53,932 bases of DNA from an uncultured Pelagibacteraceae bacterium. Its GTDB lineage: Bacteria > Pseudomonadota > Alphaproteobacteria > Pelagibacterales > Pelagibacteraceae. Below the pieces are notes generated by a model. That model saw only the letters and a program-made list of their open reading frames with translations, was not told where the DNA came from and did not search any database. The stretch spans positions 1-53,932 of the forward strand of contig CABXRY010000006.1 in assembly GCA_902514755.1 (NCBI GenBank). The letters are read 5' to 3'. The translations under genes and the position numbers were made by a program. Shown here piece after piece: positions 21,332 to 52,008 of the stretch (positions are counted from its first letter, which is position 1; each line of letters begins with the position of its first letter).

Positions 21332-21335
21332 TATT

Positions 21336-22103: not shown

Positions 22104-22158
22104 AATGTTTGGTTACTTTATAATGATTATTTAGATATTTTATATTGATTATATTTGA

Positions 22159-23070: not shown

Positions 23071-23110
23071 TCTAAATTTTAATTTAACTTAGTTTATAAA
23101 TCAATTTTAA

Positions 23111-23434
23111 TTAAATATAATTATTTATAATTGCCATACAAATCGCAGAAAAGATAGTCGGGTAAATATAGTTTTTATTTGAAATAAAAAATACTAATAA
23201 AGATAACAAAACAACTATAAGTCTACTAGAATAAGTTGAGTCTACTAAAACTCCTGCAGGAAAAATTATGGTTCTTGCAATTAAAGCTGCTAAAGTTGCA
23301 TAAGCTAAACAATTAAACCATCTAAACAACTTAGATGTCTCTTTTATACCTTGTGAACTAACTACACCTAAAAATCTTGATAGAAATGTTGCAAAAGAAG
23401 TAACCAAAATTGCGTATACAATATTAGCTGACAC
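23111..23434 (-). CDS. AzlD family protein (branched-chain amino acid export, small subunit)
   Basis: About 107 aa, 3-4 TM, adjacent to and overlapping azlC-like gene. Confidence 0.7.
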   Translation of the reverse strand: MSANIVYAILVTSFATFLSRFLGVVSSQGIKETSKLFRWFNCLAYATLAALIARTIIFPAGVLVDSTYSSRLIVVLLSLLVFFISNKNYIYPTIFSAICMAIINNYI

Positions 23435-26699: not shown

Positions 26700-27592
26700 T
26701 ATTTTAAGTACTCTCTTTTTTTGGAAAGTTTAAATCTTCTGTACACAAGTATTAAAACTAAAAGCAAAAATACCGATCCAATTCTAAATTCTGTTCCTAA
26801 AATATAATCAGCAAATTCTTCAAATACTCCTAATCCCATTCCTGACATTGCGACACCTGGTAAATTTCCTAATCCAGCAACAATGACAATCATAAATGAT
26901 CTTATTGTGTAGGGTAAACCCATATAAGGATGGATAGTAAATGTTATGGAAATTAGTGCACCAGCAACACCACAAAGGGCTGCATTAATACCAAATGTTG
27001 CTGCATAAACTTTTTCCGTATCTACACCTAAAATCTTTGCTGCTCTTGCATTTTGTGCTGTAGCTCTAATTGCTCGACCGAGCTTAGACTTTTTCATGTA
27101 AATTACTAAACAAATTGCAAATAAAATACTTATAAAGGCTGAAAAGATTTTTGAATTCGGCAACACAACATTATTATTAAATAACATAGTTGTTCCGTAA
27201 TCTGAATTTGCTAGAACAACATCAGCTCCAAATGCAAAGTTCATTAATTGCATGAAAAGAATACTTATTCCAAAAGTCGCTAAAATAGAGATAAATAAAT
27301 CTCTATCTACCACTTTGTTAATTACGAGTTTGTAAATTGCTATTCCAACAAAAAACATTATTATTGGGGCAACAATTACTCCCCATGCTGGATGAATTCC
27401 ATATAGATACATGAAATAAGCGATGTATCCACCTAATATAACAAGATCTCCTTGAGCAATATTAATTATATTCATTACTCCCCATTGAAGTGCCATACCA
27501 TATGCAATCAATGCAAATAAAATTCCAAGTAAAACTCCGTCCAAACACGCTTGAACAGAAATCATTGGATATTGAAAGACCATGAAATCCAT
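26699..27592 (-). CDS. Branched-chain amino acid-type ABC transporter permease (LivH-like)
   Basis: 'WGVMNIINIAQGDLVILGGY', 'IVAGLGNLPGVAMSG'. Confidence 0.92.
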   Translation of the reverse strand: MDFMVFQYPMISVQACLDGVLLGILFALIAYGMALQWGVMNIINIAQGDLVILGGYIAYFMYLYGIHPAWGVIVAPIIMFFVGIAIYKLVINKVVDRDLFISILATFGISILFMQLMNFAFGADVVLANSDYGTTMLFNNNVVLPNSKIFSAFISILFAICLVIYMKKSKLGRAIRATAQNARAAKILGVDTEKVYAATFGINAALCGVAGALISITFTIHPYMGLPYTIRSFMIVIVAGLGNLPGVAMSGMGLGVFEEFADYILGTEFRIGSVFLLLVLILVYRRFKLSKKREYLK

Positions 27593-27601
27593 AATGAACC
27601 T

Positions 27602-27645
27602 TTTAAAAAAAATACCCCCTATATATAATATATTAGGGGGTATTT
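27602..27645 (-). terminator. Intercistronic rho-independent terminator/attenuator between substrate-binding protein and permease genes
   Basis: 12-bp stem AAATACCCCCTA (27610-27621)/TAGGGGGTATTT (27634-27645); U-rich tract 3' on the minus strand (TATTTTTTTT). Confidence 0.85.
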
Positions 27646-27656
27646 ATAGATTTGTT

Positions 27657-28892
27657 TTATCTTTTAGACCAAGAAGGAATTGGATGAATTAATTCAGCTG
27701 AAGCCCATTTTGTAGGAGCTACAACTTTATTTTCACAATTATCCCCATCACACATAACTTGGAAAAGAACCATCGGCTTATCAACATTTTGACCACCTTC
27801 TGCAAATTTTATATTTCCATAAAAAGTTTGCATGTTGGTAGCTGCAAGAGCGTCTCTAACTTTCTTTTGATCAAAAGAATCTGCTCTCTCAAATGCATCT
27901 TTAAATACCAATAGTGCAGCTGATGACTCTGCTGCTTGATATGGAGGTGCATAACCAAACTCTTTGGTAAAGTCTGCATCATAAGTAATACCATCTTTAA
28001 AGAAATCATCTTTATAAGTTAATGTTTTGTGCCACTGAGAAGCGCATAAAGCATATTGTGAGTTTTTACCATGTTGCTTTGATAATTTAGCTGCATCACA
28101 GTGTGTCATAGCTAACATTGGAATATCTACCTTCATCTCAGATATTTGTCTGATAGCAGTTAGAGCACCCTTTGTGTGACCTGAAACAACTAAAACATCT
28201 GGTTTCATTTGTTTTACTTTTACTAATGTTGCGGCCATATCATTAAGCTCTTTTGGTAATTTATCATCAATTACTTTTTTAGAGCCAGTTCTCTTAATTG
28301 CATCTAATACCCCAAGTCTTACGTCTTGAGAAAACGCATCTTGTTCAAATGCCATTGCAACAGTAACTCCTTTACCATTATTCTTTTCAACCGCTAGATC
28401 AATAGCAACATCAAGATATAAGTTAGCTGGAGCTAATACAGCAAATAGATATTTGTAACCTTTTGTAAACAAAGATCTAGATGCACCATTTGCTTCAACC
28501 ATTGGAACACCATATTTTTCTGTTACTGGAGCAATCGCTTTAGTTAAACCAGAGCTATATGGACCAAGCATAAACTCAACTCCATCTTGTGATATTAATC
28601 TTTCTGCAAGCTGTGCAGCTCTTTTTGGGTTTGACTCATCATCATAATAGATAATGTCAAACTTATAAGTCTTTCCACCAACTTTAACACCACCCATGCT
28701 GTTAATTCTGTCAACGGCCATGTTATAACCGTTTTGAGTATGAACACCATTAGATGAGTATTTACCAGTTAATGAAATTGCAGCACCTAAAATAATTTTG
28801 TCACCAACAACTTTTGCAAATGATGCAACAGATGTTGAAAATAAAATTACTAATGCAGAAACAAAACTTAAAATTATTTTATTCAATCTCAT
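27657..28892 (-). CDS. HAAT-type ABC transporter substrate-binding protein (LivK-like)
   Basis: Signal peptide; 'DKIILGAAISLTGKYSSNGVHTQNGYNMAVDRIN', 'EFMLGPYSSGLTKAIAPVTEKYGVPMVE'. Confidence 0.92.
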   Translation of the reverse strand: MRLNKIILSFVSALVILFSTSVASFAKVVGDKIILGAAISLTGKYSSNGVHTQNGYNMAVDRINSMGGVKVGGKTYKFDIIYYDDESNPKRAAQLAERLISQDGVEFMLGPYSSGLTKAIAPVTEKYGVPMVEANGASRSLFTKGYKYLFAVLAPANLYLDVAIDLAVEKNNGKGVTVAMAFEQDAFSQDVRLGVLDAIKRTGSKKVIDDKLPKELNDMAATLVKVKQMKPDVLVVSGHTKGALTAIRQISEMKVDIPMLAMTHCDAAKLSKQHGKNSQYALCASQWHKTLTYKDDFFKDGITYDADFTKEFGYAPPYQAAESSAALLVFKDAFERADSFDQKKVRDALAATNMQTFYGNIKFAEGGQNVDKPMVLFQVMCDGDNCENKVVAPTKWASAELIHPIPSWSKR

Positions 28893-30294: not shown

Positions 30295-31263
30295 CTACTT
30301 AGCAATAAGATCAAAATCAAAAAAAGCAGAGTCAAAGTAACCAATCATATTGGTTGTGCTTGTCATACTTTTAGCTAATCCTCTAGTATTGTTATATTTA
30401 ATTTGAAGACCAATAGTTTCAGGGGTTATTTTGATTGGATTTACTAGCGGCATAATACCGATAAGTCTCGAAATTCCATGGTCTGCACCACCAGTGCAGC
30501 CTGTTACACCATTTTTAATTTGATCTGTATCAGTTCCTCCAACTCCATCAACAAGGGTTAGGTCAGACTCTAATAAATATGTATCAACATTAACATGTGT
30601 TCCTTGAAACGTCATAGCATGATAACAATCATCATCACTATCCATTGTTAATGTATTAACACCAATAGTAGTCTCAGCAGCAGTTGCACCCGCTGTACAA
30701 TCAACATTTGACTTAGCGGCAGTATTTATTCTGTTTTCAAATCCATAAATTGTTCCAAGGGAAGAAACTTTCGTCACGCAGGTCGTCGACGAATTTGATC
30801 TATCACTCATAGTAGCATTAAAAAGTTGGCTTGTCGTAAATTTAAATGTAGAGCCCATGGTGACAATTCCGAAAGTATATGTTCCATAAGGTACAGCAGT
30901 ATAATCTGCTGCAGTTCCTATTTGAGTACCTGTTCCTTTTACAACTGTTGTCTCAGATCCACTATCATTTTTATAAAAGGTTGAACAATTAGTTCTTACT
31001 ACTTGTGTGGATGTTGTTGGACCAGTTGGTCTCGATGTGCACAAATCTAATCTATAAAAAGTCATTTTTTGAGTATCTGGTTGAAATTCGCATGTGTTAC
31101 CAGCGGATGCTGGCGTTATTGTTCCCCCATTACCTGTACATTCAGAATTAATTCTTGTTATTGATTCACTTGGTTGAGCGTTAGAGTTAGTAGAATAAAG
31201 AGCGATAAATATAAAAATAAATGAACATATAAAAATATTTAATCTTTTGTTATTTTCTTTCAT
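30295..31263 (-). CDS. Secreted hypothetical protein, eight cysteines in mature part
   Basis: Sec signal peptide (RLNIFICSFIFIFIALYSTNSNA); start 2 nt after stop of the inverse-autotransporter-like gene. Confidence 0.65.
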   Translation of the reverse strand: MKENNKRLNIFICSFIFIFIALYSTNSNAQPSESITRINSECTGNGGTITPASAGNTCEFQPDTQKMTFYRLDLCTSRPTGPTTSTQVVRTNCSTFYKNDSGSETTVVKGTGTQIGTAADYTAVPYGTYTFGIVTMGSTFKFTTSQLFNATMSDRSNSSTTCVTKVSSLGTIYGFENRINTAAKSNVDCTAGATAAETTIGVNTLTMDSDDDCYHAMTFQGTHVNVDTYLLESDLTLVDGVGGTDTDQIKNGVTGCTGGADHGISRLIGIMPLVNPIKITPETIGLQIKYNNTRGLAKSMTSTTNMIGYFDSAFFDFDLIAK

Positions 31264-31265: not shown

Positions 31266-32108
31266 TTAAAATCCTATTACTGTTAAATCCATTTCTTTTT
31301 GTTTTACAATTAAATTTTGTCTTCTAACTTTTGCAAATTTTTGATCTGCAACTGAGGTTAAATTATAAGCAGTATCACTTATTCCAACTTCATTATTTGA
31401 ATTATTACAACAAGTATAAGTTATTTTTAAAAATTCTTCATCTTCAGTAATTCCATCATTACTTCTTTTTCCAACTTCAATATTAAAATTTGAAAGTTTT
31501 GCTTCTAGTGATATCTCATCTCCCTCTAGATCTGCTGCACCACTAGCACCTTCCCAATTAAATGATCTATAATATAAGTTTGTCCATGGTAGATAAGGCA
31601 ATGGCATACCTAATTCTACGTCACTACCGTTTAATGCTTTTTCACTTATGTTATTAAATCCTGATTTCCAACCTGAAAGACCATAATATTGATTAGCTCT
31701 TAATGATCCAACGCTTGATATTGCTTCAATACCTATGCTTGCTCTTTGGTGATCATAATCTAATTCATGGTCATAGAATAAATTATAACCAACTAATAAT
31801 GTATCATCATTAATCAATTTTCTATTACCAAAACCTAAATTGATAGTTTCTCTACTATCATCTGATAAGAAAAGGCTTGCTTGAGTAAATATTATATTTT
31901 CATTATCACTTGGATCACTTAAAGGTTTTACTACTAAAATGCTTCCAGTAATTTCATTTGTTACACCTGTACTTAAACCAATTTCAGCAGTTGGGAATTT
32001 TTCACTAAAATAACTATTTAAGTTGTTCATAAACTTATTAGTTAGGTCTACAGCACTAGCATTAAGACTAAATATCAACATTAAAAAGATGAAACTTATT
32101 TTTTTCAT
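31266..32108 (-). CDS. Inverse autotransporter beta-barrel domain protein (intimin/invasin-type barrel, no passenger)
   Basis: 'ETINLGFGNRKLINDDTLLVGYNLFYDHELDYDHQRASIGIEAISSVGSLRANQYYGLSGWKSG' matches inverse-autotransporter barrel hallmarks; ends at the linker-like 'KFAKVRRQNLIVKQKEMDLTVIGF'. Confidence 0.8.
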   Translation of the reverse strand: MKKISFIFLMLIFSLNASAVDLTNKFMNNLNSYFSEKFPTAEIGLSTGVTNEITGSILVVKPLSDPSDNENIIFTQASLFLSDDSRETINLGFGNRKLINDDTLLVGYNLFYDHELDYDHQRASIGIEAISSVGSLRANQYYGLSGWKSGFNNISEKALNGSDVELGMPLPYLPWTNLYYRSFNWEGASGAADLEGDEISLEAKLSNFNIEVGKRSNDGITEDEEFLKITYTCCNNSNNEVGISDTAYNLTSVADQKFAKVRRQNLIVKQKEMDLTVIGF

Positions 32109-35483: not shown

Positions 35484-35783
35484 TTATTGAATTTTTTTAC
35501 AATCTGGATCTTCTGGTTTATCAAAAAATATCTTTTGTAAACTATTGCTATAGGTATTATCGCACTCTCGAAGTTCATCTTCATCTGGCAATAAACTCAT
35601 TGCATGCTCGCTAACATTTTTACCTGTTTTATTCTTTACTCCATAATTTATTGTTTCGCCAACTATTGCTTGTTGGATACCACCCGTTTTAGCTATTGAA
35701 ATTGCTGGGCCCAACATTGTTAAATTTTGAGCACATCCTGTTAAAAATATTACAGCAAATAAAATAAAAAAAATATTTTTCAT
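35484..35783 (-). CDS. Small lipoprotein, unknown function
   Basis: Lipobox 'FLTGCAQ'. Confidence 0.65.
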   Translation of the reverse strand: MKNIFFILFAVIFLTGCAQNLTMLGPAISIAKTGGIQQAIVGETINYGVKNKTGKNVSEHAMSLLPDEDELRECDNTYSNSLQKIFFDKPEDPDCKKIQ

Positions 35784-35863: not shown

Positions 35864-38101
35864 TTATTTACCAATACCAATAATTGTTAAATCATCATCA
35901 AGAATATCGTTATTTTCTTTGATGCCCTTTTCGGATATTTCTTTTTTTAGACTTCTAAGTCGAATTTCTTCTGTTGCATCTTCTAATTCTTTTTGAAGTG
36001 AAGTATTTTGATGTTTAATAATTAATTCTTTAACACCACTAATACCTATTTCTTTTTTTTTTTCATTCATGCACTCAGAAAAACCATCGGTGAAACAATA
36101 AATTCTACCTCCATTGAGCTTGAAACTTTCTAATTTATATACAGTTTCATCTTTATGTTTTGTAACTGCTAATGGGACTGAGCTAGATGGAAATTCTCTA
36201 AAATCTTTATCATTTCTTAATAATGCAGGTTGATGTCCAGCATTTGCAATTTCGACCAAATCTGATTTTAAATTATATCTTCCAACAATTGAGGTTATAA
36301 ATGTACCTCTAGGATTTGTATCATTTAAATCATTATTCATTTCAAATAAAATTTCATTAGGGCTAAATTTTTGTCTTGCAAAAATTTTAAATAAAGTAAT
36401 GGCTTTGGCCATCACCATCCCTGCATTTACGCCTTTGCCTGATACATCTGATAACGTGAAGTAAATTTCATCATCATGAAGGAAAAAATCATAAAAATCT
36501 CCTGAAATTTCTCTTGCTGGAATGTTAAGACCAAATATAGGAAAGTGATCCATATCTCTTTTTGGCATTAAACGTTTTTGAACATCCATTGCTAGTTTGA
36601 TTTCTTGTGAAACTCTATTTTTCCATTTATTTTTTTGTTTTTCAGTTTGCTCAAGCCTATCCATCAAAACATTATATTGAGTTCCAATAATACCACTATC
36701 CGTGAAAGGATCCTGAGGAGCCCTATTAGAATAGTCATCTGATTTAGCTTGTTTTGTTAAGACTTCTAACAATTCATGCGTATCAGTTGATGCATTATGT
36801 TCTGAAATATTAAGACCTAACTCTTCTTGAATTTTTCCAACTCTTAATGGGAAAAAAGAATTGATAGTTTTAAAAATTATATAAGACCCAAAAAAACAAA
36901 AGCTTCCAATGGAAGCAATTCCAATTAATTGAATTAATAATTGTTCTATTCTTGTTTTTTCAACTCCCATCATTTCGAAATTACCAAATATAGCAACAGC
37001 AATAGTTCCCCAGATTCCAGAGGCTAAATGAACAGGAATTGCACTCACTACATCGTCAATTTGAATTTTTTCTAACAGTACAATTGTTGATCCTGAAATA
37101 ATTCCACCAATGCTTCCAATTATAATTGCATCTGACGGATCAACATAAGCACATGATGCCGTTATGGAAACTAATCCAGCAAGAGGACCTGTTATCATGA
37201 ATAAGGGTTCAGGTTTTTTTAAAACAATTATTCCCATTATGCTTGAAAAAATAAGACCAAAAGAAGCTGATAAAAAAGTATTAATTAAAATTAATGGAAT
37301 TTTTAAATCCATTGCTCCATTAGCGCCTCCGTTAAATCCAAACCAACCAAACCATAAAATTAAAGCTCCAAGTGCTGCAATTGGAGTATTACTTCCTTGA
37401 AAAGTTTTACTTAAGCTATCTTTTCTAAATCTTCCTGTTCTATTTCCAACAACTAATAAAACTGCAAGTGCAATCCAGCCACCAACTGAATGGACAACAG
37501 AAGCCCCTGCAAAATCTAAATAACCTAATTTACCAAGCCAACCAAATTTTTCTGTTGGATTTTCAAAGTTAAATGCCCAAGACCAATGACCAACAATTGG
37601 ATAAAAAAATCCTGAAGCAAAAAATGTAATAATAACGTAAGAAAAAAATCTTAACCTCTCAGCAACTGCACCAGATATAATTGTTGCAGCTGTTGCAACA
37701 AACATCGCTTGGAAAACAAAATAAGTCTGATAACCTGCAACTTTTGTGGTAAAAAAGAAAAACTTATTACCAAATAACCCTGAAACACTAGTTCCGTACA
37801 TTAGCGCAAAACCGAAAGCCCAAAAAATTACAACTGCAATACCAAAGTCAGTTACATTTTTAAGAGCAACATTAATACTATTTTTGTTTCGAGATAATCC
37901 AGTTTCCAAACACATAAACCCTGCTTGCATCAAAAAAACAAGGATTGCACAAATTAAAAGCCAAAAGGTATCTAGATTTGCTTGAAGGATTGCATCTAAA
38001 CGAAATTCTAATGCAGTTAAAGCTCCTTTGTTGGTAAGCTCTAATTGCTTAATACTTGACTGCAGCTTATTAAGCAATATCTGGGTTTCAGCCGCAGTCA
38101 T
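35864..38101 (-). CDS. Ammonium transporter (Amt) domain fused to C-terminal SpoIIE/RsbU-type PP2C serine phosphatase
   Basis: Amt motifs 'GAVAERLRF', 'LDFAGASVVHSVGG' and 'IPVHLASGIWGT' (both pore His), 'GWFGFNGGA'; PP2C motifs 'VQKRLMP', 'EISGDFYDFF', 'SDVSGKGVNAGMVMAK', 'NAGHQPALL', 'TDGFSE', 'DDDLTIIGIG'. One uninterrupted 745-aa ORF. Confidence 0.95.
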   Translation of the reverse strand: MTAAETQILLNKLQSSIKQLELTNKGALTALEFRLDAILQANLDTFWLLICAILVFLMQAGFMCLETGLSRNKNSINVALKNVTDFGIAVVIFWAFGFALMYGTSVSGLFGNKFFFFTTKVAGYQTYFVFQAMFVATAATIISGAVAERLRFFSYVIITFFASGFFYPIVGHWSWAFNFENPTEKFGWLGKLGYLDFAGASVVHSVGGWIALAVLLVVGNRTGRFRKDSLSKTFQGSNTPIAALGALILWFGWFGFNGGANGAMDLKIPLILINTFLSASFGLIFSSIMGIIVLKKPEPLFMITGPLAGLVSITASCAYVDPSDAIIIGSIGGIISGSTIVLLEKIQIDDVVSAIPVHLASGIWGTIAVAIFGNFEMMGVEKTRIEQLLIQLIGIASIGSFCFFGSYIIFKTINSFFPLRVGKIQEELGLNISEHNASTDTHELLEVLTKQAKSDDYSNRAPQDPFTDSGIIGTQYNVLMDRLEQTEKQKNKWKNRVSQEIKLAMDVQKRLMPKRDMDHFPIFGLNIPAREISGDFYDFFLHDDEIYFTLSDVSGKGVNAGMVMAKAITLFKIFARQKFSPNEILFEMNNDLNDTNPRGTFITSIVGRYNLKSDLVEIANAGHQPALLRNDKDFREFPSSSVPLAVTKHKDETVYKLESFKLNGGRIYCFTDGFSECMNEKKKEIGISGVKELIIKHQNTSLQKELEDATEEIRLRSLKKEISEKGIKENNDILDDDLTIIGIGK

Positions 38102-38113
38102 AATTAAATCTTA

Positions 38114-38452
38114 TTAATCTACTAATTTTCTAGCTTCCTCAGCGTCGTTGATAATTTTATCAACACTTACAACTTTGATAACTTCAAAACCAGTTCCAAG
38201 AATAGCATTTTTGTAATCTTCTTCTGTTAGATTTGATTTATCAGCAAAAGAGGAAATGGCTACGCCCTCCGGCCATGACACCTTAACATCAGCATTAGGA
38301 CTTGCTGCCTGAAGTGCTTTAGTTACCATTTTTTGACACTTAATGCACATCATACCATTCACTTGAGCTATTTGTGATTGAGCTGCAAAAACATTTGTAG
38401 AAAATAATATCAATAATAAAGTAATAAATATTTTTTTCATATTTGCTTTCAT
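38114..38452 (-). CDS. Secreted heavy-metal-associated (HMA)-like domain protein
   Basis: Signal peptide then 'QIAQVNGMMCIKCQKMVTKAL' CxxC. Confidence 0.75.
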   Translation of the reverse strand: MKANMKKIFITLLLILFSTNVFAAQSQIAQVNGMMCIKCQKMVTKALQAASPNADVKVSWPEGVAISSFADKSNLTEEDYKNAILGTGFEVIKVVSVDKIINDAEEARKLVD

Positions 38453-38547
38453 TTTTAATTAAATAAACCTAACTCCAATAGTAACTTAAATCTATAATAA
38501 AGCTGGTCAATTTGAGTTAAAAATTCAATTGTTAATTGATTTATCTA

Positions 38548-38799
38548 TTATTCAGTATCTTTTTTTTTCCAAATATAAAAAAATATATATGGAGATAGAG
38601 CGGGCACAATTCCAAACCAAAACCATTCATCCCATCTAAAACTTTTATCTAAAGTTGGTGCTTTTAAACCATTCCACCAAGTTAAATAACCAACAAAAAT
38701 TATCCAGCCTAAACTAGCTGTTATAAAAATTTTTTGTTTTTGTGAAAAGTCTTGTTTTGTTAATTTTAAAAAAAATTCTTTTATGTTTTCTAAATTCAT
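38548..38799 (-). CDS. Small membrane protein with about two TM segments, unknown function
   Basis: ORF track 38548..38838; ATG at 38799 (MNLENIKEFF) avoids overlap with pilin gene. Confidence 0.55.
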   Translation of the reverse strand: MNLENIKEFFLKLTKQDFSQKQKIFITASLGWIIFVGYLTWWNGLKAPTLDKSFRWDEWFWFGIVPALSPYIFFYIWKKKDTE

Positions 38800-38803
38800 A
38801 ACC

Positions 38804-39250
38804 TTAACACTTACTGGGATCTCTTCGTAAAGAACCATCAGCTGTTAAAGTTATATTACACCCGTTAGAATTATCTTCTTCAATTGCATAAATCTTATAA
38901 TTTGAAGCATGGTCTGCAACGCATATTAAATAACCTGCTGTTGCTTTTTTAGGGCTTACATTTGGATCAATAATAGATTTTGCTCCACCAAGTAATTCAT
39001 TTTCAATAGCTTCAGATGTTGCAATTGAGGGCGTGCAAGATGATCCTGTGCCTGTGTAATAAATTGAATTTTCTGAATAATACTCTGTTTGACCAAGAGA
39101 TATTTGTCTCATGATATTTTCAGTTGATTTTTTTTTAGTTGAAGAAACGTAGCCACTATAACTCGTAATACCGATAGCAGCAATAATACCTAGGATTGCT
39201 ACAACAACCAAAAGTTCAATTAGGGTAAACCCGGAACTTTTGGTTGTCAT
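38804..39250 (-). CDS. Type IV pilin (PilE/PilA-like)
   Basis: 'SGFTLIELLVVVAILGIIAAIGITSY' class III prepilin signal; C-terminal Cys. Confidence 0.9.
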   Translation of the reverse strand: MTTKSSGFTLIELLVVVAILGIIAAIGITSYSGYVSSTKKKSTENIMRQISLGQTEYYSENSIYYTGTGSSCTPSIATSEAIENELLGGAKSIIDPNVSPKKATAGYLICVADHASNYKIYAIEEDNSNGCNITLTADGSLRRDPSKC

Positions 39251-39265
39251 AAAATTTATTTTTAA

Positions 39266-39724
39266 TTATTCAATAGTAACTGAGTTATCCATTAAATTTT
39301 CACCATCAGCTGGACAACTTTTTATCGTAACAACTGTTGCAGTACTATTAACACTTGTTTGACCTTCTGTTGTAGTATTACAAGCAGTTAGTGTTGTAGT
39401 TACAATTGCAGAATTAGCAGTTGAATATGGATTTTTAAATTCAGTTCCTAATGCAGCCTCTGTTGCTTCATGAACTTTCCCTGCTTGTTTTCTTTCATTA
39501 CATTTTAATTTAGTTGCCATCACTGTAGTCTCACCAATTTCACATTTTTTAAGTTCTGCGGCTACATATTTAACAACTGCAGCTTGGTTTGATTTAACAG
39601 CTGATTTTTTTGCTCCTGCTGTGTAACCTGAGTATGCTACTACACCTACAGCAGCTAGAATTCCGATAATTGCTACAACAACTAGTAGCTCGATAAGAGT
39701 AAAACCTTTATTATTTTTTTTCAT
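39266..39724 (-). CDS. pilA: Type IV pilin (major pilin candidate)
   Basis: 'MKKNNKGFTLIELLVVVAIIGILAAVGVVAYSGY'. Confidence 0.9.
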   Translation of the reverse strand: MKKNNKGFTLIELLVVVAIIGILAAVGVVAYSGYTAGAKKSAVKSNQAAVVKYVAAELKKCEIGETTVMATKLKCNERKQAGKVHEATEAALGTEFKNPYSTANSAIVTTTLTACNTTTEGQTSVNSTATVVTIKSCPADGENLMDNSVTIE

Positions 39725-39885
39725 AATTAATTCCTATATTTTATAAGTAAACTTTATAAACCTTAATAGTTTTTGTAAAGCCAAGAAATTATGATAATTC
39801 TTCGCATTAGCAATACTTTAATAGTCCAAAATGGGTGTTAATACTAGCGTTTAATAAAAAATTAACGTAAAAAGAGCAAAAAAAA

Positions 39886-40185
39886 ATGACCTATCAAGTT
39901 ACAGAAGAAAATAATATCTCAACAGTGTTTCTTAACGGTGAGATCGATATGGATGTGACAGATAAAGCGAAAGATGTCATTCTGCCATTAATAGAGGCTG
40001 GCAAAGAAGTTCACATTAATCTTAAAGATGTTGAGTACATGGACTCATCAGGAATTTCAGTGCTAATTGAGAGCCATCAAAAAGCTACAGAGCTTGGAAC
40101 TAAAGTAACTCTAAAAGAAATCAGTAAATCTGTTCTTAAAGTAATCATGATGGCAAAACTAGAGCAGATCTTAAATTTAGATTGA
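39886..40185 (+). CDS. STAS domain anti-sigma factor antagonist (RsbV/SpoIIAA-like)
   Basis: 'FLNGEIDMDVTDKAKDVI', 'VEYMDSSGISVLIESHQKA' with phosphorylatable Ser. Confidence 0.92.
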   Translation: MTYQVTEENNISTVFLNGEIDMDVTDKAKDVILPLIEAGKEVHINLKDVEYMDSSGISVLIESHQKATELGTKVTLKEISKSVLKVIMMAKLEQILNLD

Positions 40186-40595
40186 TGAATATTAAAGATC
40201 AAAAAGAGTTTCCAGTAGACTCGGCACAACTTAAAGAAGTAAGAAATTTTGCAAGAGGATTGTTTGATCAAGTTCCAGAATTTGAAGATAATAGAGAAGA
40301 ATTAGTTTTAGCGTTAGCAGAAGCAGCTCAAAATATTGTCAAACATGCTTATAGTGGTCAACCAAGTGGGGATACTATGAGAGTTGAAATTGAATATCAG
40401 GACAAAGTTTTAAAAATGGAATTATTTGATAAAGGTAAACCTGTTATCCCTGAAAACATTAAGCCAAGAAAATTAACGGATATTAAAGCTGGTGGATTAG
40501 GTACTTTTTTTATAGGACAAATAATGGATGAAGTTGTTTTTAAAACTAATAAAGAAGATTGGGTAAATCACTTAATCTTAACAAAAAGATTCTAA
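40182..40595 (+). CDS. RsbW/SpoIIAB-like ATP-binding serine kinase (HATPase_c anti-sigma type)
   Basis: 'ELVLALAEAAQNIVKHAY' N-box, 'FDKGKP' G1, 'GGLGTFFI' G2; ATGA overlap with STAS gene. Confidence 0.9.
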   Translation: MMNIKDQKEFPVDSAQLKEVRNFARGLFDQVPEFEDNREELVLALAEAAQNIVKHAYSGQPSGDTMRVEIEYQDKVLKMELFDKGKPVIPENIKPRKLTDIKAGGLGTFFIGQIMDEVVFKTNKEDWVNHLILTKRF

Positions 40596-41833
40596 CTACC
40601 AATAATAGAACCAACATTAAAGATTGGAGAATACATCGCAATCATCAATCCACCAATCATTGTTCCCATAAATACAATCATAATTGGTTCAATCAAACTC
40701 GACATATTATCAACTGCAGTATCGAATTCCTCTTCATAGTAAGCTGACACAGAATTAAACATTTCATCCAAGTTTCCTGTTTGTTCACCAACAGAAATTA
40801 GCTGACTAAATGTTGCTGGAAAAACAGGTTCTTTTAAAAATAATTTTGTTAAGGTGTCTCCTGAAAACACTCCTTTTTTTACATTCTCTAACGCTTGTGT
40901 TACTACATCGTTATTACTAACTGATTTTGCAATCTCAATACTTTCTAATAAATTTACACCCGCAGCACTTAAATTTCCCATAATAAGTGAAACTCTTGCA
41001 ATCAGTGATTTTAAAATCATATCGCCAAATACTGGCATCTTTAATACTTGTTGATGCCACTTATATCTAACAGCTGGTATTTTAGTAGTTGTGTATTTAA
41101 AGATGATATAAGTAATAAGACATACAATACCAAGTGTAAGACCGCCACTACCTCGCATAAAATTACTAGCTGTCATAATAACTGCGGTTGGCGTAGGAAG
41201 AGCTACACCCATTCCTTCATACATTTTTGCAAAAACTGGAACAACTTTGATTAACATGAAAACCATCACTGTTATTGCAACCGAAAACATCACAACAGGA
41301 TAAGTGAGTGCACCTTTAATCTTCTTTTTAACTTTTTCCCTTTTTTCAAGTGACTCTACTAATTTTAATAAGAACGTATCTAGTTTACCGCTGGCTTCAC
41401 CAGCTTTAATTAAATTGATATAAACACTATCAAAAATCTTTGGATATCTCTCAAAACACTTAGATAATGTAATCCCTCCTTCAAGGTTTTTTCTTACATC
41501 TTCAATAATTTCTTTCATTGTTGGATGCTCTATTTGATCTCTTAACATCGTAAGTACATTTAAGATAGGAAGTCCAGCCTTAACCATGGTTGCAAATTGT
41601 TTTGAAAAAATCATTACATCTTCTGGTTTGACTGCTTTTTTACCAAAAGAAAAACCTCCACCCTTTTTCTTTTCTTTTTCTGCTTTTTTCTTTTTAATTT
41701 TTGTAAGATTAGTAATGATTACTTTTTGCTCTTTAAGTTTAAATGACGCTTCTTCTTGATTGAGAGCTTCTATCTCGCCTTCAATATATTTTCCTGCTGA
41801 AATCCCTTTATATGAAAATGTTTCTGCTGACAT
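40592..41833 (-). CDS. pilC: Type IV pilus inner-membrane platform protein PilC (GspF family)
   Basis: 'FSKQFATMVKAGLPILNVL', 'SVGEQTGNLDEMF', 'YEEEFDTAVDNMSSLIEPIMIVFMG'. Confidence 0.93.
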   Translation of the reverse strand: MSAETFSYKGISAGKYIEGEIEALNQEEASFKLKEQKVIITNLTKIKKKKAEKEKKKGGGFSFGKKAVKPEDVMIFSKQFATMVKAGLPILNVLTMLRDQIEHPTMKEIIEDVRKNLEGGITLSKCFERYPKIFDSVYINLIKAGEASGKLDTFLLKLVESLEKREKVKKKIKGALTYPVVMFSVAITVMVFMLIKVVPVFAKMYEGMGVALPTPTAVIMTASNFMRGSGGLTLGIVCLITYIIFKYTTTKIPAVRYKWHQQVLKMPVFGDMILKSLIARVSLIMGNLSAAGVNLLESIEIAKSVSNNDVVTQALENVKKGVFSGDTLTKLFLKEPVFPATFSQLISVGEQTGNLDEMFNSVSAYYEEEFDTAVDNMSSLIEPIMIVFMGTMIGGLMIAMYSPIFNVGSIIGS

Positions 41834-41839: not shown

Positions 41840-43588
41840 TTACTCCGAACTTAATACCCGGTCAAATTCTCTAAAATTTAAATCACCAGTTAAAATTAAT
41901 TCTCGGCCCATGTCTTGCATTGTTCTAAATCCTTCTTTCATTGCAATTTCTTTAAGCTCAGGTGTAGTAGCTTTTCTTAAAATTGCTTCTTTAATTGGTT
42001 TAGATACGCTTAAAATTTCATAAATACCCATTCGTCCTTTATAACCTGAGTCTTTACATTGAGAACAGCCCTCTCCTTTTTGAACTTTAGCTCTTGATGC
42101 TTGCTCAACTGTGAAACCAAAATCAGCAAGCGCTTTAGGAGTAATATCTTCATCAGGCACTCTGCAATTTGGACAAGTTTTTCTTGCAAGTCTTTGAGCA
42201 AGGATTAAACTTACAGCAGCACTAATCAGATAATCTGGTGTTCCCATATTTTGTAATCTAGTAATTGAACTTGGGGCATCATTAGTATGAAGTGTACTAA
42301 ATACTAAGTGACCCGTTAAAGCAGCTTTCAAACCTATATCAACAGTTTCTTTATCCCTCATCTCTCCAACAAGAATAATTTCTGGGTCTTGTCTTAAAAA
42401 AGATCGAAGCGCTCTTTGGAAATCATAACCAATATCATCTTTAATTTGAACTTGTCCTACACCATCTAATTCATACTCAACTGGATCTTCTGCGGTAAGA
42501 ATGTTTAAGTGTGGTTTAGATACCTCTTTTAAAATACTATAAAGGGTTGTTGTTTTACCAGAACCTGTTGGACCAGTTACCAAGACAAGTCCTTGTGTTC
42601 CATGAATTGCTTTTCTTAAATTTTTTAAATCTGTTTCTTCAAAGTTTAATTGTTCTAAACTAATGTCGCCAGCATCTTTGTTTAGAACCCTCATTACAAT
42701 TCTTTCATTGGTAGCCGTTGGTAAAATTGATAGACGAAGGTCAACAACCTTGCCATCTATTTTAAAAGGTATAGCTCCATCTTGTGGTAATCGTCTTTCA
42801 GCAATATCCAATTTACCCATAATTTTAAATCTTGTTACAACCGCTCCATAATTAGAGTGTAAAAATTTCGCAAAATGTTCTTGTTCTGTAAGAATTCCAT
42901 CAAGTCTATATCTAACCCTTGAGGTAAATCTATAGGGTTCAATATGAATATCTGATACTCCTGATTTAATTGCTTCTGCAACAACTGCAGTACTAAATTT
43001 AATTACATCAGACTCGTTCTCTATTGCTTCTATATCTTCTTCTGGTTTTTCATCCAAAAGTTCTGCACTTTCATCAACATCATAATCGAATGTTTTTGTT
43101 TTTTCTTGATTTGATTGTTGAATTGACTGCATTGTGGTTTCACCATCTGCAGATAATCTGTCAATATGAGCTGAAATATCAGATAACTTTGCAGCATGAA
43201 GTTCAATGTCTTTTTTGGTAATTGTTTTTAAATTTCTCATTAAGCTTAATTTTGAACTATCTGGAATAGCAATATGTAAAACGTTACCCTCAATTTTAAA
43301 TGGAGCAATAAAATTCATGTTTATATAATTTGAAGGTAATACAGATTTTATTTCATCTGAAACTTCAGAACTCGCTAAATCGGCTATATCAAGTGATTGC
43401 TCTTTAACTAATAAATCTAAAATTTTATCTTCATCAGTTAAATTTAATTCAAAAACGGCATCGATTTGGGATTTATCACCATCAGATGATTTCTTTTTGA
43501 TATCAATTAAATCTTTACCAGAAATTACATCTTGATCTATTAAGATGTTAATTAAATTAATTTCCGACTCTCTACTTATCTTGATCAA
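41840..43588 (-). CDS. pilB: Type IV pilus assembly ATPase PilB (GspE family)
   Basis: 'TGPTGSGKTTTLYSIL', 'ILTAEDPVEYELDGVGQVQI', 'RQDPEIILVGEMRDKETVDIGLKAALTGHLVFSTLHTNDA', tetra-Cys motif. Confidence 0.95.
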   Translation of the reverse strand: MIKISRESEINLINILIDQDVISGKDLIDIKKKSSDGDKSQIDAVFELNLTDEDKILDLLVKEQSLDIADLASSEVSDEIKSVLPSNYINMNFIAPFKIEGNVLHIAIPDSSKLSLMRNLKTITKKDIELHAAKLSDISAHIDRLSADGETTMQSIQQSNQEKTKTFDYDVDESAELLDEKPEEDIEAIENESDVIKFSTAVVAEAIKSGVSDIHIEPYRFTSRVRYRLDGILTEQEHFAKFLHSNYGAVVTRFKIMGKLDIAERRLPQDGAIPFKIDGKVVDLRLSILPTATNERIVMRVLNKDAGDISLEQLNFEETDLKNLRKAIHGTQGLVLVTGPTGSGKTTTLYSILKEVSKPHLNILTAEDPVEYELDGVGQVQIKDDIGYDFQRALRSFLRQDPEIILVGEMRDKETVDIGLKAALTGHLVFSTLHTNDAPSSITRLQNMGTPDYLISAAVSLILAQRLARKTCPNCRVPDEDITPKALADFGFTVEQASRAKVQKGEGCSQCKDSGYKGRMGIYEILSVSKPIKEAILRKATTPELKEIAMKEGFRTMQDMGRELILTGDLNFREFDRVLSSE

Positions 43589-45132
43589 TCTAATACCCTT
43601 GGTGCTATAAATATCAACAACTCTTCAAGCTTATCTTCCTTCTTTTTATATTTTAAAAGGTTTCCAATTACCGGAACATTTCCTAAACCTGGAACTTGCT
43701 CTTTAGCTTTTGATATATTATTGGATTTTATTCCACCAATTACAACAATATCTCCATCAGCAACTAAAAGTTTTGTTATAATTTCCATTTTTGTAATTGG
43801 AGGTTCGTCTTGTGATGTGTCAGCATCATCATTATTTACCTGTATATCTAACAAAACGTTTCCGTCTCCAATAATACTTGGTGTAACTTGAAGTTTTAAA
43901 GCAGCCTCTTTAAATGAAGTTGAAGTTGTTCCTTCAGAAGTTGTTTCATAAGGAATTTCCTTACCTTGTGTAACTGAAGCAGGCTGATTATTTATAGTAA
44001 AGACTTTTGGATTTGAAATTGTCTCTACCATTCCCATTTTCTCAAGAGCTGTAATTTCAGCTTTTAATACTGCGGAACCAGTTTTCTTTAATATTCCAAT
44101 ACCACTTGTAGCACCTGTTGCTGCAAAATTTGTAATTTGATCTTTTGCGACTTGAGCAAGTGCAGCAGAAGTATCATCAAGCGTTCCAGCAGAACTTGTT
44201 GAACCAACTATACCACCTATCTGCTCATCACCTCTCTTATAGTAACCACCTAACCTTGTGCCTAATTGTTTTTCAAATTCAGATGTTGCTTTAACAACAA
44301 ATGCTTCAATTAAAACTTGCTCAGTTTTTATATCAATTTCATTTAATACTTTATCAACTGTATCTAAATCTCTTTCTTTACCTCTAACAATAATTGATCT
44401 GGTTGCTGTTTCTTCTGTAATTTTTATTGGAGAATATGAGTTTTCTCCAGTACTTTTAAATAATTCTTCAATTGTAGTTTTTGCAAGAGCTGGGGATATA
44501 TAATAAAGTCTAAATATTTCTGAAATTATAGGCTCAACACTATCTTCAAGTTCTACTTTATTTTTTACAGCTTGTGCTCTTTCTGATTTATAAGTTTCTT
44601 GAGAAGTCAAAGTCTCAGGTGAATGCACTCTTATCAAATTACTAGTTACATCTATATCTGATGCATAATTCTTCATATCTAATAAAGCTTGAAAAGCTTT
44701 ATCCCATGGGACATCAACTAACTCTGCAGAAATTGCACCCGCTACTTCGTCTCCAACTAAAACGTTAATTTCACCAATTTTTCCCATTAATTTCATAGTC
44801 TCTTTATAATCAAGATTTTTGAATTTTAAGGTTACTCTCTGTTTCAAAGACTTATACTCATCAGGTATCAGCAGATAATTTCTTTGAGTTTCAGAGGTAA
44901 TTTTTCTTCTTTTTTTAATCTTTACACTTTGTCCATCAACTGGTTTTGGGCCCATCTCAAGAGTTTTGGCAATTTCAGCTTTACCCAAAGCTCTCATATC
45001 TTTTTTTATTAAAGGTGTATTGTGTTTAAAAGGCTTATTATATTTTTTTGCAAATTGAGAGTTAGCACAACCACTTAAAACAAATCCTAAGATCATTACA
45101 ATCGACAAATTTAAGAGTTTTCTAGTATTCAT
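43585..45132 (-). CDS. pilQ: Type IV pilus secretin, lipoprotein (PilQ/MshL-like)
   Basis: 'LGFVLSGCANS' lipobox; 'VPGLGNVPVIGNLLKYKKKEDKLEELLIFIAPRVL' secretin C-terminus; ORF track start 45192, likely start 45132. Confidence 0.9.
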   Translation of the reverse strand: MNTRKLLNLSIVMILGFVLSGCANSQFAKKYNKPFKHNTPLIKKDMRALGKAEIAKTLEMGPKPVDGQSVKIKKRRKITSETQRNYLLIPDEYKSLKQRVTLKFKNLDYKETMKLMGKIGEINVLVGDEVAGAISAELVDVPWDKAFQALLDMKNYASDIDVTSNLIRVHSPETLTSQETYKSERAQAVKNKVELEDSVEPIISEIFRLYYISPALAKTTIEELFKSTGENSYSPIKITEETATRSIIVRGKERDLDTVDKVLNEIDIKTEQVLIEAFVVKATSEFEKQLGTRLGGYYKRGDEQIGGIVGSTSSAGTLDDTSAALAQVAKDQITNFAATGATSGIGILKKTGSAVLKAEITALEKMGMVETISNPKVFTINNQPASVTQGKEIPYETTSEGTTSTSFKEAALKLQVTPSIIGDGNVLLDIQVNNDDADTSQDEPPITKMEIITKLLVADGDIVVIGGIKSNNISKAKEQVPGLGNVPVIGNLLKYKKKEDKLEELLIFIAPRVLD

Positions 45133-45592
45133 CTGCCTCTCTAATCTGATTATTAAAATCAATAATAATAAAAGACTTATCTTCTTTTTCAAAGATAGCT
45201 TCCGTTAATCTTAAATCTATAAATTTTATTTTTCCTAAATACTGATTAAGATTTAAAGTAATAACATCTCCTGATGTATTTGTTAAACTTATATAACTTT
45301 CATCTTTACCTGAAATTAAACCTGACAATTTAAAATTGTACAAACTCATTTCGTCTCTCTCTTCACCAGTTTCTGGATTAACTGTTGAGCTGCCCATTCC
45401 TTCATTTCCTGCAAATGGATCATTAAGAGGAACTTCATCCTCATCTACTTGGTTTTGTTTGCTTTCAATTTCTTTAGTAATTTCTTTTGCTTTTTCTACT
45501 AATTCAGTATTAGTGCTATGATTATCTGCATATACTTTTCCTGATAATAAAAACAGTACGGTTATAAAAAAAAGTTTTTTAAAAGAATTCAT
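45122..45592 (-). CDS. PilP-like pilus assembly protein
   Basis: Signal peptide; 'LYNFKLSGLISGKDESYISLTNTSGDVITLNLNQYLGK' PilP-like; synteny between PilO-like and secretin. Confidence 0.7.
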   Translation of the reverse strand: MNSFKKLFFITVLFLLSGKVYADNHSTNTELVEKAKEITKEIESKQNQVDEDEVPLNDPFAGNEGMGSSTVNPETGEERDEMSLYNFKLSGLISGKDESYISLTNTSGDVITLNLNQYLGKIKFIDLRLTEAIFEKEDKSFIIIDFNNQIREADEY

Positions 45593-46250
45593 CAGGTATA
45601 CCTACTATTGTTAATTCTCCTTGTGCAATAATCGCTCCAGTTGAATCGTTTTGTACAACACTTATAGTCTCCTTGTCAAAGTTTAACATTTTGCTTGATT
45701 TAGCTATAGATCTCTTAAACTTGATATATCCAAGGAAATTACCTTTAATCTCATATTCAACAGGTATTTTATAATATGAAATATCTGTTTTGTTCAATAA
45801 CTCCTCCGCCTGTTGAGCTACTCCACTTTTTAAAACTGGTTTAGGTTTTTTCTTTTGAATTTTAGAAATAGTTAAACCATTTACACCAGCATACTTACTT
45901 AAGCTTTGATATAATCCTTCAACTTCCTCTTTAGAATGAAATAACGTAGAGCTTTTTTTAAACTCAGGCTCAAGTTTTTTTAATCTCTTTTTATTTAAAA
46001 TAATTTCATTTTCAAATTGAACAATTTCATTTTGCTTTAAAACTTTTTCATTATAAAGAGCTTTTTTATTTTTAACGATTGGATTTAAAATAGCATAATA
46101 ACCAATTAAAAAAATAATAATTGCTGCAAAACCAATCCCAAATTTAATTAATGTTTTTTTATCAATTGCTTTAAGCTTTTCTTTTAAATCACCAACTTTA
46201 ATATTTTTTAAATCTATGTTTAAATCCATTATGCGCTCTCCAATATACAA
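45579..46250 (-). CDS. PilO-like pilus assembly protein
   Basis: One N-terminal TM, coiled coil, 'YKIPVEYEIKGNFLGYIKFKRSIAKSSKMLNFDKETI' PilO-like; synteny. Confidence 0.8.
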   Translation of the reverse strand: MYIGERIMDLNIDLKNIKVGDLKEKLKAIDKKTLIKFGIGFAAIIIFLIGYYAILNPIVKNKKALYNEKVLKQNEIVQFENEIILNKKRLKKLEPEFKKSSTLFHSKEEVEGLYQSLSKYAGVNGLTISKIQKKKPKPVLKSGVAQQAEELLNKTDISYYKIPVEYEIKGNFLGYIKFKRSIAKSSKMLNFDKETISVVQNDSTGAIIAQGELTIVGIPDEFF

Positions 46251-47944
46251 GCTACAACAAACCCTTTCATGGTGGGAGCATTTTGTGATTGCCCATCAGG
46301 AAGTGTCATTGTTGCTAATGATGCTTGCTTAATTAATTTTTTATTATTTAAATTACTTATTAATTTTAAGATATCTTGGTCACTAAAAGCTGAGCCTTTT
46401 ATGACGATTTGACTTGAGCCATTATACTCAACTGATTCAAACTTAACTCTTTTTGGCACTGCAGAGGCAATTTGAGCCAATACTCTAAAACTTGCAGTTT
46501 TGTTTGACTTAATCGATTTACTAATCTTAAGTGACTTTAAAATTATACCTACATCTTTTTCTAGTTTATTTTTTTCAAGAGTTCTAAGCTCATGAGTTTG
46601 AACGATTTCATCATAATCTACTAACTTTCCATTTAATTCTTTGATTTGCCAAAATGATAATCCAAACAATGCTACATAGATTAATGAAACAACTCCAATT
46701 ACACCTTTGAATGCAAAATTTGAAAACACTTTTGCTTTCTTTTGAGCCATCATGCTGTCTCTATTAGGCAGTAGGTTAATATTTTTTACTGCTGTCACAA
46801 ATTTGTAATAACCAAAAACATCCAACTTTCTAAATGCTAAACCAATCACTGTTGAAAAATATGATCTATTTTGATAATTTACACTTTCTTCTAATTGTGC
46901 AGGAACTTTAATTTCTTTAATTGGATCTAATAAATCAAAACCAGTATTAGCTAAACTTTTTCTAAAAGTTTCAAGATAAGTATCAACATTAGTTAAGTTA
47001 GAGACAACTTTTAAATTTCTAATTCTTTTTTCATATTTTGTTTCAAAATCTTGTATCGCTTGTTTAACTTGAGTCACATACCTTCTAACTAGAGCATCCA
47101 TGTCTTCTTGGTTGTCAGAATTTAAAAGCGTATTTCTATCTTGGCCTCTTATAAATATATCGGTAATAATTGGATTGTTTTCATATAAAATCATTACATA
47201 ATTTTCATCCAATCCAAATTCTAGAACTGCAGTAAGATTACTCTCTTCAATTGATCCACCAAGCTGATTGATTTGGTCAACAGCAGACTTTAGTGCAAAA
47301 CATTTCACATCAATAATTACTGCATTTAAACCACCTTTTTTGATGATTGATGTATAGCTATTAATATCTGAAAGTTTTGAAGCAACGAATAAGATATCCA
47401 TAGTATTTCCGGTAGAGTCTCTATTTATAACTTGATGAAAAACAGAATAATCATTTAGATTATCAGTTAGTTGAACTAAATTTTCCCAAAGAGAATCTGT
47501 ATCAATTGCTTTATTCAATTCTTCGTCAGTCATTAAAGGTGCTGTTACTACTCTGATAATTGCGCTTGTAACTGGGATTGCAATTGCAGCATTTGATGTT
47601 TGTATTTTAGATTTTTGTAAAGCAATTTGTAATTGTTCCCCGTACTTGTCTGGTTCATCTAATACACTTGAATTTGAGTCTGAATCTTCAATTTTATGGG
47701 TAAAAAATTTTTCTAAAACCCACTTATTTGATTTGTCAGTCGATAATTGAGCTAACCTAATTTCAGTAGGAGTTAACTCTACTCCAACTATTTCTTCTCC
47801 TTGAACTGCAGATTTTCCTAACCTGTTTTTAAAAAATTTACTAAAAAATCCCTCTTTCTTTTTTGTATCTTGAGCTTTTGGGACAGGTGTTCCCTCATCA
47901 CCTTTCGGTTTTTTTTTAAAAAGATTAGCAAAAGGATTTTTCAT
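46229..47944 (-). CDS. PilM-PilN fusion protein
   Basis: N-terminal PilM actin-like fold ('EEIVGVELTPTEIRLAQL', 'NAAIAIPVTSAIIRVV') followed in the same 571-aa ORF by PilN ('KNINLLPNRDSMMAQKKAKVF' then TM). Confidence 0.88.
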   Translation of the reverse strand: MKNPFANLFKKKPKGDEGTPVPKAQDTKKKEGFFSKFFKNRLGKSAVQGEEIVGVELTPTEIRLAQLSTDKSNKWVLEKFFTHKIEDSDSNSSVLDEPDKYGEQLQIALQKSKIQTSNAAIAIPVTSAIIRVVTAPLMTDEELNKAIDTDSLWENLVQLTDNLNDYSVFHQVINRDSTGNTMDILFVASKLSDINSYTSIIKKGGLNAVIIDVKCFALKSAVDQINQLGGSIEESNLTAVLEFGLDENYVMILYENNPIITDIFIRGQDRNTLLNSDNQEDMDALVRRYVTQVKQAIQDFETKYEKRIRNLKVVSNLTNVDTYLETFRKSLANTGFDLLDPIKEIKVPAQLEESVNYQNRSYFSTVIGLAFRKLDVFGYYKFVTAVKNINLLPNRDSMMAQKKAKVFSNFAFKGVIGVVSLIYVALFGLSFWQIKELNGKLVDYDEIVQTHELRTLEKNKLEKDVGIILKSLKISKSIKSNKTASFRVLAQIASAVPKRVKFESVEYNGSSQIVIKGSAFSDQDILKLISNLNNKKLIKQASLATMTLPDGQSQNAPTMKGFVVACILESA

Positions 47945-48093: not shown

Positions 48094-49110
48094 ATGTTTG
48101 AAAAATTAGAAGAACTTGCAAAAAATAATAAGAAGATTTCAGATTTTCATATTAGATCTGGATCTCCTTTAGCATATAGACAAACTGGTGAGATTATAAA
48201 AGTAGCTGACACTAATGTTACGGCTCAAGATTTAAAAGATTTGATATCCATGAACTGCAATGAAGCTGAGACTGCAAGATTTAATGAAACTCACGAACTA
48301 GACTCTGCGGTAATGTTAAGTGGTTTAAGATTTAGAGCAAACTTTTATAAAACAATAAATGGTCCAGCTGCAGTTCTTAGAAGAGTTGAAAGTAAAATTC
48401 CGGATATGGATCAATTTAATTTACCTCAAGCGTTGTATGATATCGTAGATTTTCATAAAGGTTTAGTTTTAGTAACAGGACCTACTGGATCAGGAAAATC
48501 TACAACTCTTGCAGCAATCGTAAATGAGATTAATAAAACAAGAACATCAAATATCATAACTGTTGAAGATCCGGTAGAATTTATACATAAAGACAATCAA
48601 AGTATTGTCTCACATAGAGAGGTTGGAAAACAAACTCAATCATTTTCAGCAGCTTTAAAAGCGGCATTAAGAGAAGACCCAGATGTTATATTAGTTGGAG
48701 AGATGAGAGATCTCGAAACTATTAGTTTGGCTTTAACGGCGGCTGAAACAGGGCACTTAGTTTTTGGAACTTTGCACACAAGTGGTGCACCAAGCACAAT
48801 TAATAGAATTATTGATGTATTTCCTCCTGAACAACAGGAACAAATTCGTGCACAAATTTCAACTTCATTAAAAATGGTAGTTACTCAAAGATTACTTAAA
48901 ACTAGAGATGGTCAAGGTAGAGTTGGTGCATTTGAAATAATGAAGTGTACTCCACCAGTTCAAAACTTAATTAGAGAAGCAAAAATTCATCAAATTCCAA
49001 GTATCATGCAAACAGCAGTTAGAGATGGTATGATTACAATGGAAAAATCTCTGGAGGAATTGGTTAAATCAGGTAAAATAGATCCAGGTGCAGCAAAATC
49101 AGGACATTAA
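48094..49110 (+). CDS. pilT: Type IV pilus retraction ATPase PilT (PilT/PilU family)
   Basis: 'LVTGPTGSGKSTTLAAIVNEIN', 'REDPDVILVGEMRDLETISLALTAAETGHLVFGTLHTSGAPSTINRIIDVFP'. Confidence 0.93.
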   Translation: MFEKLEELAKNNKKISDFHIRSGSPLAYRQTGEIIKVADTNVTAQDLKDLISMNCNEAETARFNETHELDSAVMLSGLRFRANFYKTINGPAAVLRRVESKIPDMDQFNLPQALYDIVDFHKGLVLVTGPTGSGKSTTLAAIVNEINKTRTSNIITVEDPVEFIHKDNQSIVSHREVGKQTQSFSAALKAALREDPDVILVGEMRDLETISLALTAAETGHLVFGTLHTSGAPSTINRIIDVFPPEQQEQIRAQISTSLKMVVTQRLLKTRDGQGRVGAFEIMKCTPPVQNLIREAKIHQIPSIMQTAVRDGMITMEKSLEELVKSGKIDPGAAKSGH

Positions 49111-51933: not shown

Positions 51934-52008
51934 AGTTTTATGTGACCTATAATGACTATTAAAATAATAGACCAATAATTAAAAAATTATTATGATGATT
52001 GAATTAAA

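Follow-up and report, generated by a model that had tools for sequence, protein, structure and literature searches.

In this study, we show that a complete set of partner-switching genes encloses the pilin genes of a type IV pilus locus in a 53,932-nt stretch of DNA (the window, to which all coordinates refer) from SAR11 (Pelagibacteraceae), the most numerous group of heterotrophic bacteria in the sea. The set consists of an ammonium transporter (Amt) domain fused to a SpoIIE/PP2C phosphatase domain (Amt-PP2C), a single-domain STAS protein and an RsbW-type serine kinase. We propose, with a probability that we put at about 0.6, that these proteins form a partner-switching module dedicated to the SAR11 type IV pilus, in which Amt-PP2C would be the ammonium input and the output would be pilus-specific. 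The parts are of known kinds; their combination, its sensor and its tie to SAR11 pili appear to be new.

Switch genes and their layout

The source genome is 0.97 Mb in size and 70% complete. A preliminary description of this DNA had placed an Amt-PP2C, a STAS protein and an RsbW-like kinase around two pilin genes and up against pilC; the open reading frames lie where it had put them and their domains are confirmed, as follows.

35864-38101, minus strand: Amt-PP2C, predicted sensor phosphatase of 745 amino acids, orthologue of the SAR11_0050-type 'ammonium transporter'
~36788-37972, ~36476-36787 and ~35882-36475, minus strand: its Amt domain, linker and PP2C domain, respectively
38804-39250, minus strand: second pilin, PulG/pilin-like (N_methyl PF07963, E=2e-8)
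39266-39724, minus strand: major pilin, pilA-like, SAR11_0054 in strain HTCC1062 (N_methyl PF07963, E=1e-10)
39725-39885, no strand: divergent intergenic region between pilA and the STAS gene, gene layout conserved in relatives
39886-40185, plus strand: single-domain, RsbV-like STAS protein, predicted phosphoserine S54 at 40045-40047 in a DSSG motif
40185-40595, plus strand: RsbW-type serine kinase, SAR11_0057 orthologue (open reading frame called from TTG at 40182, likely start ATG at 40185)
40592-41833, minus strand: PilC, type IV pilus inner-membrane platform (T2SSF PF00482, E=1e-60)

Both pilin genes sit between the phosphatase and STAS genes. The STAS and kinase genes are divergent from the pilins, which places them outside the pilin operon, and convergent with pilC, the stop codon of which (40592) overlaps that of the kinase by 4 bases. 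A promoter scan of the pilA-STAS intergenic region performed no better than on shuffled sequences. The coupling of the kinase to the STAS gene described earlier holds as an overlap, whereas its start at 40182 does not: that codon is a TTG, and translation probably begins at the ATG at 40185, where the start codon overlaps the STAS stop codon in the sequence TGATG.

The set has the three kinds of protein of Rsb/Spo-type partner switching, namely a STAS protein with a predicted phosphorylatable serine, a HATPase_c_2 kinase and a PP2C phosphatase with its metal-binding acids. The STAS protein matches PF01740 (E=1.5e-15) and scores above the cut-off of TIGR00377, the kinase matches PF13581 (HATPase_c_2; E=1.1e-21, above cut-off), and the phosphatase matches both PF00909 (Amt; E=1.6e-106) and PF07228 (SpoIIE/PP2C; E=2.8e-28). 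In the PDB, the STAS protein retrieves RsbV/SpoIIAA and the kinase RsbW/SpoIIAB. The DSSG motif with its predicted phosphoserine is present in 72/72 unique STAS homologues, the kinase residues E46, N50, D82, G84 and G103-G106 (N, G1 and G2 boxes) are invariant across 68 homologues, and the acids D535, D552, D672, D736 and D737 of the PP2C domain are invariant in 109 Amt-PP2C homologues. Such conservation across relatives rules out chance or an annotation artefact as the origin of the switch genes.

Association of the switch with type IV pili

We surveyed 143 Pelagibacteraceae genomes, all at least 90% complete except that of the window itself. A single-domain RsbW-type kinase is encoded in 62 of them, PilC in 66 and SpoIIE/PP2C proteins in 68. 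The kinase occurs in 62/66 PilC-positive genomes against 0/77 PilC-negative ones (Fisher p = 3e-36, uncorrected for ancestry), its gene lies within 8.5 kb of pilC in 62/62 cases, and every kinase genome also has PP2C genes, from one to four each (mean 2.35). To control for shared ancestry we used an RpoD tree of 120 genomes, on which pili and kinase change 25 times each. Supported branches gave 14 independent pairs; the kinase went with the pili in 13.3 of these on average and against them in 0 (median p 2.4e-4), and PP2C went with the kinase in 10.8 (p ~1e-3). It had been suggested that the three switch genes might track pilA and pilC among relatives or, to the contrary, assort independently of them; the former is what we find, as kinase and PilC co-occur and change together. 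The tree thus makes it less probable that shared ancestry entirely accounts for the association, though physical linkage still confounds it.

The exceptions are few. Four genomes have PilC and no kinase, two of them as fragments at contig ends and the other two being G158 and G161, which are considered below. PP2C without PilC was seen in six genomes, and in three of these (G173, G222, G223) the PP2C gene lies near a contig end, so that the absence of a pilus locus may reflect an assembly gap.

Amt-PP2C and the other inputs

The Amt domain of the phosphatase is joined by a linker to a cytoplasmic signalling domain, as in sensor-type Amt receptors, and looks like proven ammonium receptors rather than transporters. 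In structure it matches the receptor Sd-Amt1 best, in both the ON and the OFF state, and Ks-Amt5 next, with all transporters behind. For these fold matches alone we used an AlphaFold model of the full fusion, which is of moderate confidence (mean predicted local distance difference test score 66, linker <50). Residues Q59, D85 and T140, equivalent to Ks-Amt5 Q24, D50 and T109, were found in 8/8 fusions compared and in 0/7 plain Amts of Pelagibacteraceae; they are invariant across 109 fusions. Moreover, each of the seven ammonium-site positions compared has the same residue in the window protein as in Sd-Amt1. The Ks-Amt5 site residues E31 and N47 were dropped as evidence of sensing since some plain Amts carry them too.

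There are two types of fusion. That of the window is extended by 30 residues at the N terminus and carries Ala in place of the Ser of the selectivity filter (51/51), whereas the other is not extended and has Ser there (58/58). We found no Amt-PP2C in 398 genomes of other Pseudomonadota, the reach of our search beyond Pelagibacteraceae, and no description of such a protein in the literature searched. Frames of 1197-1295 amino acids in four of those genomes (G355:C120, G244:C20, G375:C450, G248:C32) match the region right after the Amt domain and not the PP2C domain, and are probably sensor Amts with other outputs.

One and the same STAS-kinase core is accompanied by differing phosphatases: both types of Amt-PP2C, CHASE2-PP2C and GAF-PP2C. 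Amt-PP2C is present in at least 41/62 kinase genomes among the matches listed. Ammonium, which had been put forward as the signal, would therefore be the input of the Amt-PP2C branch and not the only input, and 'ammonium-to-pilus' describes one branch of several. The nearest near-complete relative (G035) encodes four PP2C proteins but only one STAS protein, so several sensors seem to converge on one STAS/kinase pair. In four loci (L027, L039, L040, L311) a cassette of a TPR protein, a FecR-domain protein, a CHASE2-PP2C and autotransporters recurs beside the pilus locus, which suggests a second signal input and surface proteins within the same island.

Evidence against the proposal and alternative explanations

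Several observations weigh against the proposed role. Tight linkage by itself makes kinase and pilus genes come and go jointly, and since adjacent genes can vanish together the co-transitions are no proof of function. G158 (L173) and G161 (L174) have an intact-looking pilus cluster with no adjacent STAS or kinase gene and no PP2C genome-wide, which means that the switch is dispensable for pili. About a third of the kinase genomes are without Amt-PP2C among the matches listed. In the Amt domain, T51 and T112 of Ks-Amt5 are F and S, as in Sd-Amt1, and among the pore-blocking residues of Ks-Amt5 F27 is kept while Y30 and F34 are replaced by Leu; with these changes the fusion may transport ammonium.

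The first of these points would be accommodated if the switch controlled something else, such as other surface genes, and merely travelled with the pilus island, the more so as the region is or adjoins the autotransporter-rich hypervariable region 1 (HVR1) of SAR11 (PMC2217521). We consider this improbable. The kinase accompanies three different pilus loci in differing arrangements: that of the window, that of G009, G022, G078, G017 and G063 (PilC ~45% identical) and that of G004 (~40%). In addition, PP2C genes at other loci adjoin pilin-type genes (L312, L313, L175); among them is SAR11_1218, close to two pilins and described as early as 2007 as a phosphatase and regulator of sigB (PMC2217521). 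Together these arrangements count against mere linkage, as does the lack of any PP2C in the two kinase-less genomes with pili. The pilus clusters of these natural switch-less strains contain extra pilins and autotransporters.

The residues of the pore bear on another alternative, in which the fusion would chiefly transport ammonium and its PP2C domain would report flux rather than binding. The twin histidines, the Phe gate and W175 are retained, in keeping with transport, together with the two Leu substitutions. We nevertheless give this explanation little probability, as the same near-complete genomes encode separate plain Amts, the receptor-site residues are unlike those of plain Amts, and the fusion type of the window has Ala in place of the selectivity-filter Ser.

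Output of the switch

It had been noted that no sigma factor gene is visible in the 54 kb of the window, and this extends well beyond it. In 11 near-complete relatives with and without the switch, where positive controls worked, there are exactly two sigma-70-family genes in 11/11, of RpoD and RpoH length, with neither RpoN nor GGDEF detected. A dedicated sigma factor elsewhere in the genome, or a cyclic di-GMP output through a GGDEF target of the SiaABCD type, is therefore excluded in those relatives, while the window's own genome is 70% complete. This leaves as target either a pilus-specific protein or RpoD and RpoH themselves, as in Chlamydia.

In the latter case RsbW would sequester RpoD (or RpoH) and STAS would free it, so that pili follow global transcription. 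Having only two sigma factors suits such a throttle, and in Chlamydia, where the genome is also reduced, RsbW binds the main sigma factor, sigma-66 (PMC4552016). However, RpoD and RpoH are present in every near-complete genome tested, yet the kinase is in none of the PilC-negative genomes, and global control should not depend on possessing pili. The strict tie of the kinase to pili thus counts against RpoD and RpoH as targets, and we regard this alternative as unlikely. A pilus-specific, non-sigma target is the likeliest output. In related systems that lack a sigma factor, the output is believed to be the STAS protein in its unphosphorylated form, namely HmpV, SypA or RbaV (PMC8256260, PMC3999984, PMC6495340).

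Strain HTCC1062 and its phosphoproteome

One surveyed genome, G026, appears to be Candidatus Pelagibacter ubique HTCC1062, as its gene order is the published one: SAR11_0049/0050 'ammonium transporter', 0051 metal transporter, 0052 unknown, 0053 PulG and 0054 pilin. By HTCC1062 names pilA is SAR11_0054 and rsbW is SAR11_0057, and by order two STAS genes fill 0055 and 0056. It encodes four SpoIIE/PP2C proteins, two of which are annotated as ammonium transporters (SAR11_0049/0050). The phosphoproteome of HTCC1062, published in 2025, contains 1014 Ser/Thr/Tyr sites in roughly 555 phosphoproteins, with RsbW (SAR11_0057) as the sole Ser/Thr kinase and no annotated phosphatase predicted to act on proteins (PMC13198564). 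The PP2C proteins, including Amt-PP2C, are likely to be the phosphatases paired with RsbW, and point to the 'missing' protein phosphatase of this strain.

It might be argued that RsbW and the Amt-PP2C proteins serve SAR11 as general Ser/Thr kinase and general protein phosphatases, acting on the ~555 phosphoproteins, given that no other such kinase is reported amid the 1014 sites. This we find very improbable. The kinase is missing from 81/143 genomes, including all 77 that are pilus-less, and therefore cannot be the general SAR11 kinase; its gene belongs to the pilus locus as an accessory, next to a hypervariable region; and RsbW kinases normally have one STAS substrate. What our analysis adds is the genetic home of this kinase, the pilus locus, and its likely phosphatases, two of them annotated only as ammonium transporters.

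The proposal is testable in a cultured strain. Pili of HTCC1062 are regulated, with dark, carbon-starved cells producing pili and pilA going up (PMC3090418), and the close strain HTCC1002 is naturally without one of the two Amt genes (PMC2217521).

Proposed mechanism

From the sequences we infer an ammonium response, of either sign, a phosphorylation cycle and a target, which may be connected as follows. The receptor-type Amt domain would read external ammonium and Amt-PP2C would dephosphorylate the STAS protein at S54, with CHASE2- or GAF-PP2C enzymes feeding the same STAS/RsbW pair in other genomes. The kinase would oppose them by phosphorylating the STAS protein, and the phosphorylation state would set whether the two bind each other or free a partner. 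What is released, most probably the STAS protein without its phosphate (the role put forward for HmpV, SypA and RbaV), would act on a pilus-specific target, and pilus production or activity would thereby be turned up or down. More tentatively, it is possible that SAR11 has replaced sigma-based switching with a pilus-specific, post-translational form, in which interchangeable membrane phosphatases feed a single STAS/RsbW pair and this pair targets the pilus machine directly. SAR11 reportedly lacks the PII and NtrBC nitrogen regulators; on this more tentative reading, these bacteria would have a direct circuit from ammonium to a surface structure.

Neighbouring genes

The remaining features of the locus are listed here.

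38114-38452, minus strand: small, exported-looking CxxC protein, HMA/MerP/CopZ-like (weak family matches, below cut-offs)
38548-38838, minus strand: small membrane open reading frame, start probably internal (~82 amino acids), in many but not all loci
41840-43588, minus strand: PilB extension ATPase, named from sequence and conserved cluster order
43585-47944, minus strand: PilQ, PilP, PilO and a PilM-PilN fusion (Q, P and O named from sequence and cluster order)
48094-49110, plus strand: PilT-like ATPase (T2SSE PF00437, E=3e-50)
49088-53932, plus strand: minor pilins plus the beginning of a large NHL-repeat (PilY1-like) protein that runs past the end of the window

The first two of these also fall inside the switch gene set. 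Family searches gave no match for the small membrane frame. The CxxC protein has a probable signal peptide and adjoins the extended Amt-PP2C type in 52/54 loci, the exceptions being on short contigs; the motif is kept in 37/38 unique sequences, and the protein is possibly a metal-related partner of the extended sensor. In the fusion at 46229-47944 the PilM_2 and PilN domains lie within one frame. In relatives, the NHL-repeat gene is followed by GAF- and/or CHASE2-PP2C genes (L313, L315, L316).

A family of ~100-residue lipoproteins lies beside Amt-PP2C or CHASE2-PP2C genes (window 35484-35783; L305:3907-4200; L039:2907-3197; L179:7246-7590), and in L305/L306 it is placed between pilC and the kinase. 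The same position is occupied in four genomes (L301, L302 at 5026-5526, L303, L304) by an autotransporter-like protein, with an extra pilin in two of the four. Elsewhere in the window there is an inverse-autotransporter beta-barrel (IAT_beta, 31266-32108), then a secreted 322-residue protein without family match (30295-31263), and a glutarate dioxygenase (GlaH) gene flanked by two ABC transporter clusters of the branched-chain amino acid/urea type (16213-28892).

Comparison with known systems

The output domain of Sd-Amt1, the receptor of Shewanella denitrificans, is a diguanylate cyclase, unlike that of the window protein, which is PP2C. Sd-Amt1 is the closest structure to the Amt part (PDB 8QJ3/8QJ4/8QPF; ~47% identity), and the linker after the Amt domain is common to both, the match stopping before any PP2C. 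The Kuenenia ammonium sensor histidine kinase Ks-Amt5 (PMC5764959) is likewise a repurposed Amt domain with a C-terminal signalling domain. Its site residues Q, E, N, D and T109 are kept in the window protein, whereas its output is a histidine kinase, its T51 and T112 are replaced and one of its three pore-blockers is kept. The nearest PP2C structures are of the SiaA/RssB type from Pseudomonas; however, the window protein scores 18.8 against the 700-bit cut-off of the SiaA model, and the SAR11 relatives have no GGDEF partner.

With regard to the switch as a whole, RsbU-RsbV-RsbW and SpoIIE-SpoIIAA-SpoIIAB of Bacillus are made up of the same three protein families, with the active sites conserved, but their partner is a sigma factor of a kind that the near-complete SAR11 relatives do not have. 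The alphaproteobacterial RbaY/RbaV/RbaW of Rhodobacter capsulatus (PMC3999984) has overlapping STAS and kinase genes; no sigma factor was found to go with them, and STAS is the favoured output. It differs in having a REC-PP2C input and in controlling the gene transfer agent, with no pilus linkage reported. HmpU/HmpV/HmpW of Nostoc punctiforme is cyanobacterial and is likened to the SAR11 switch through the literature only; it is a partner switch with STAS as output and no known sigma factor, and is needed for hormogonium development and for a motility that uses type IV pili (PMC6495340, PMC8256260).

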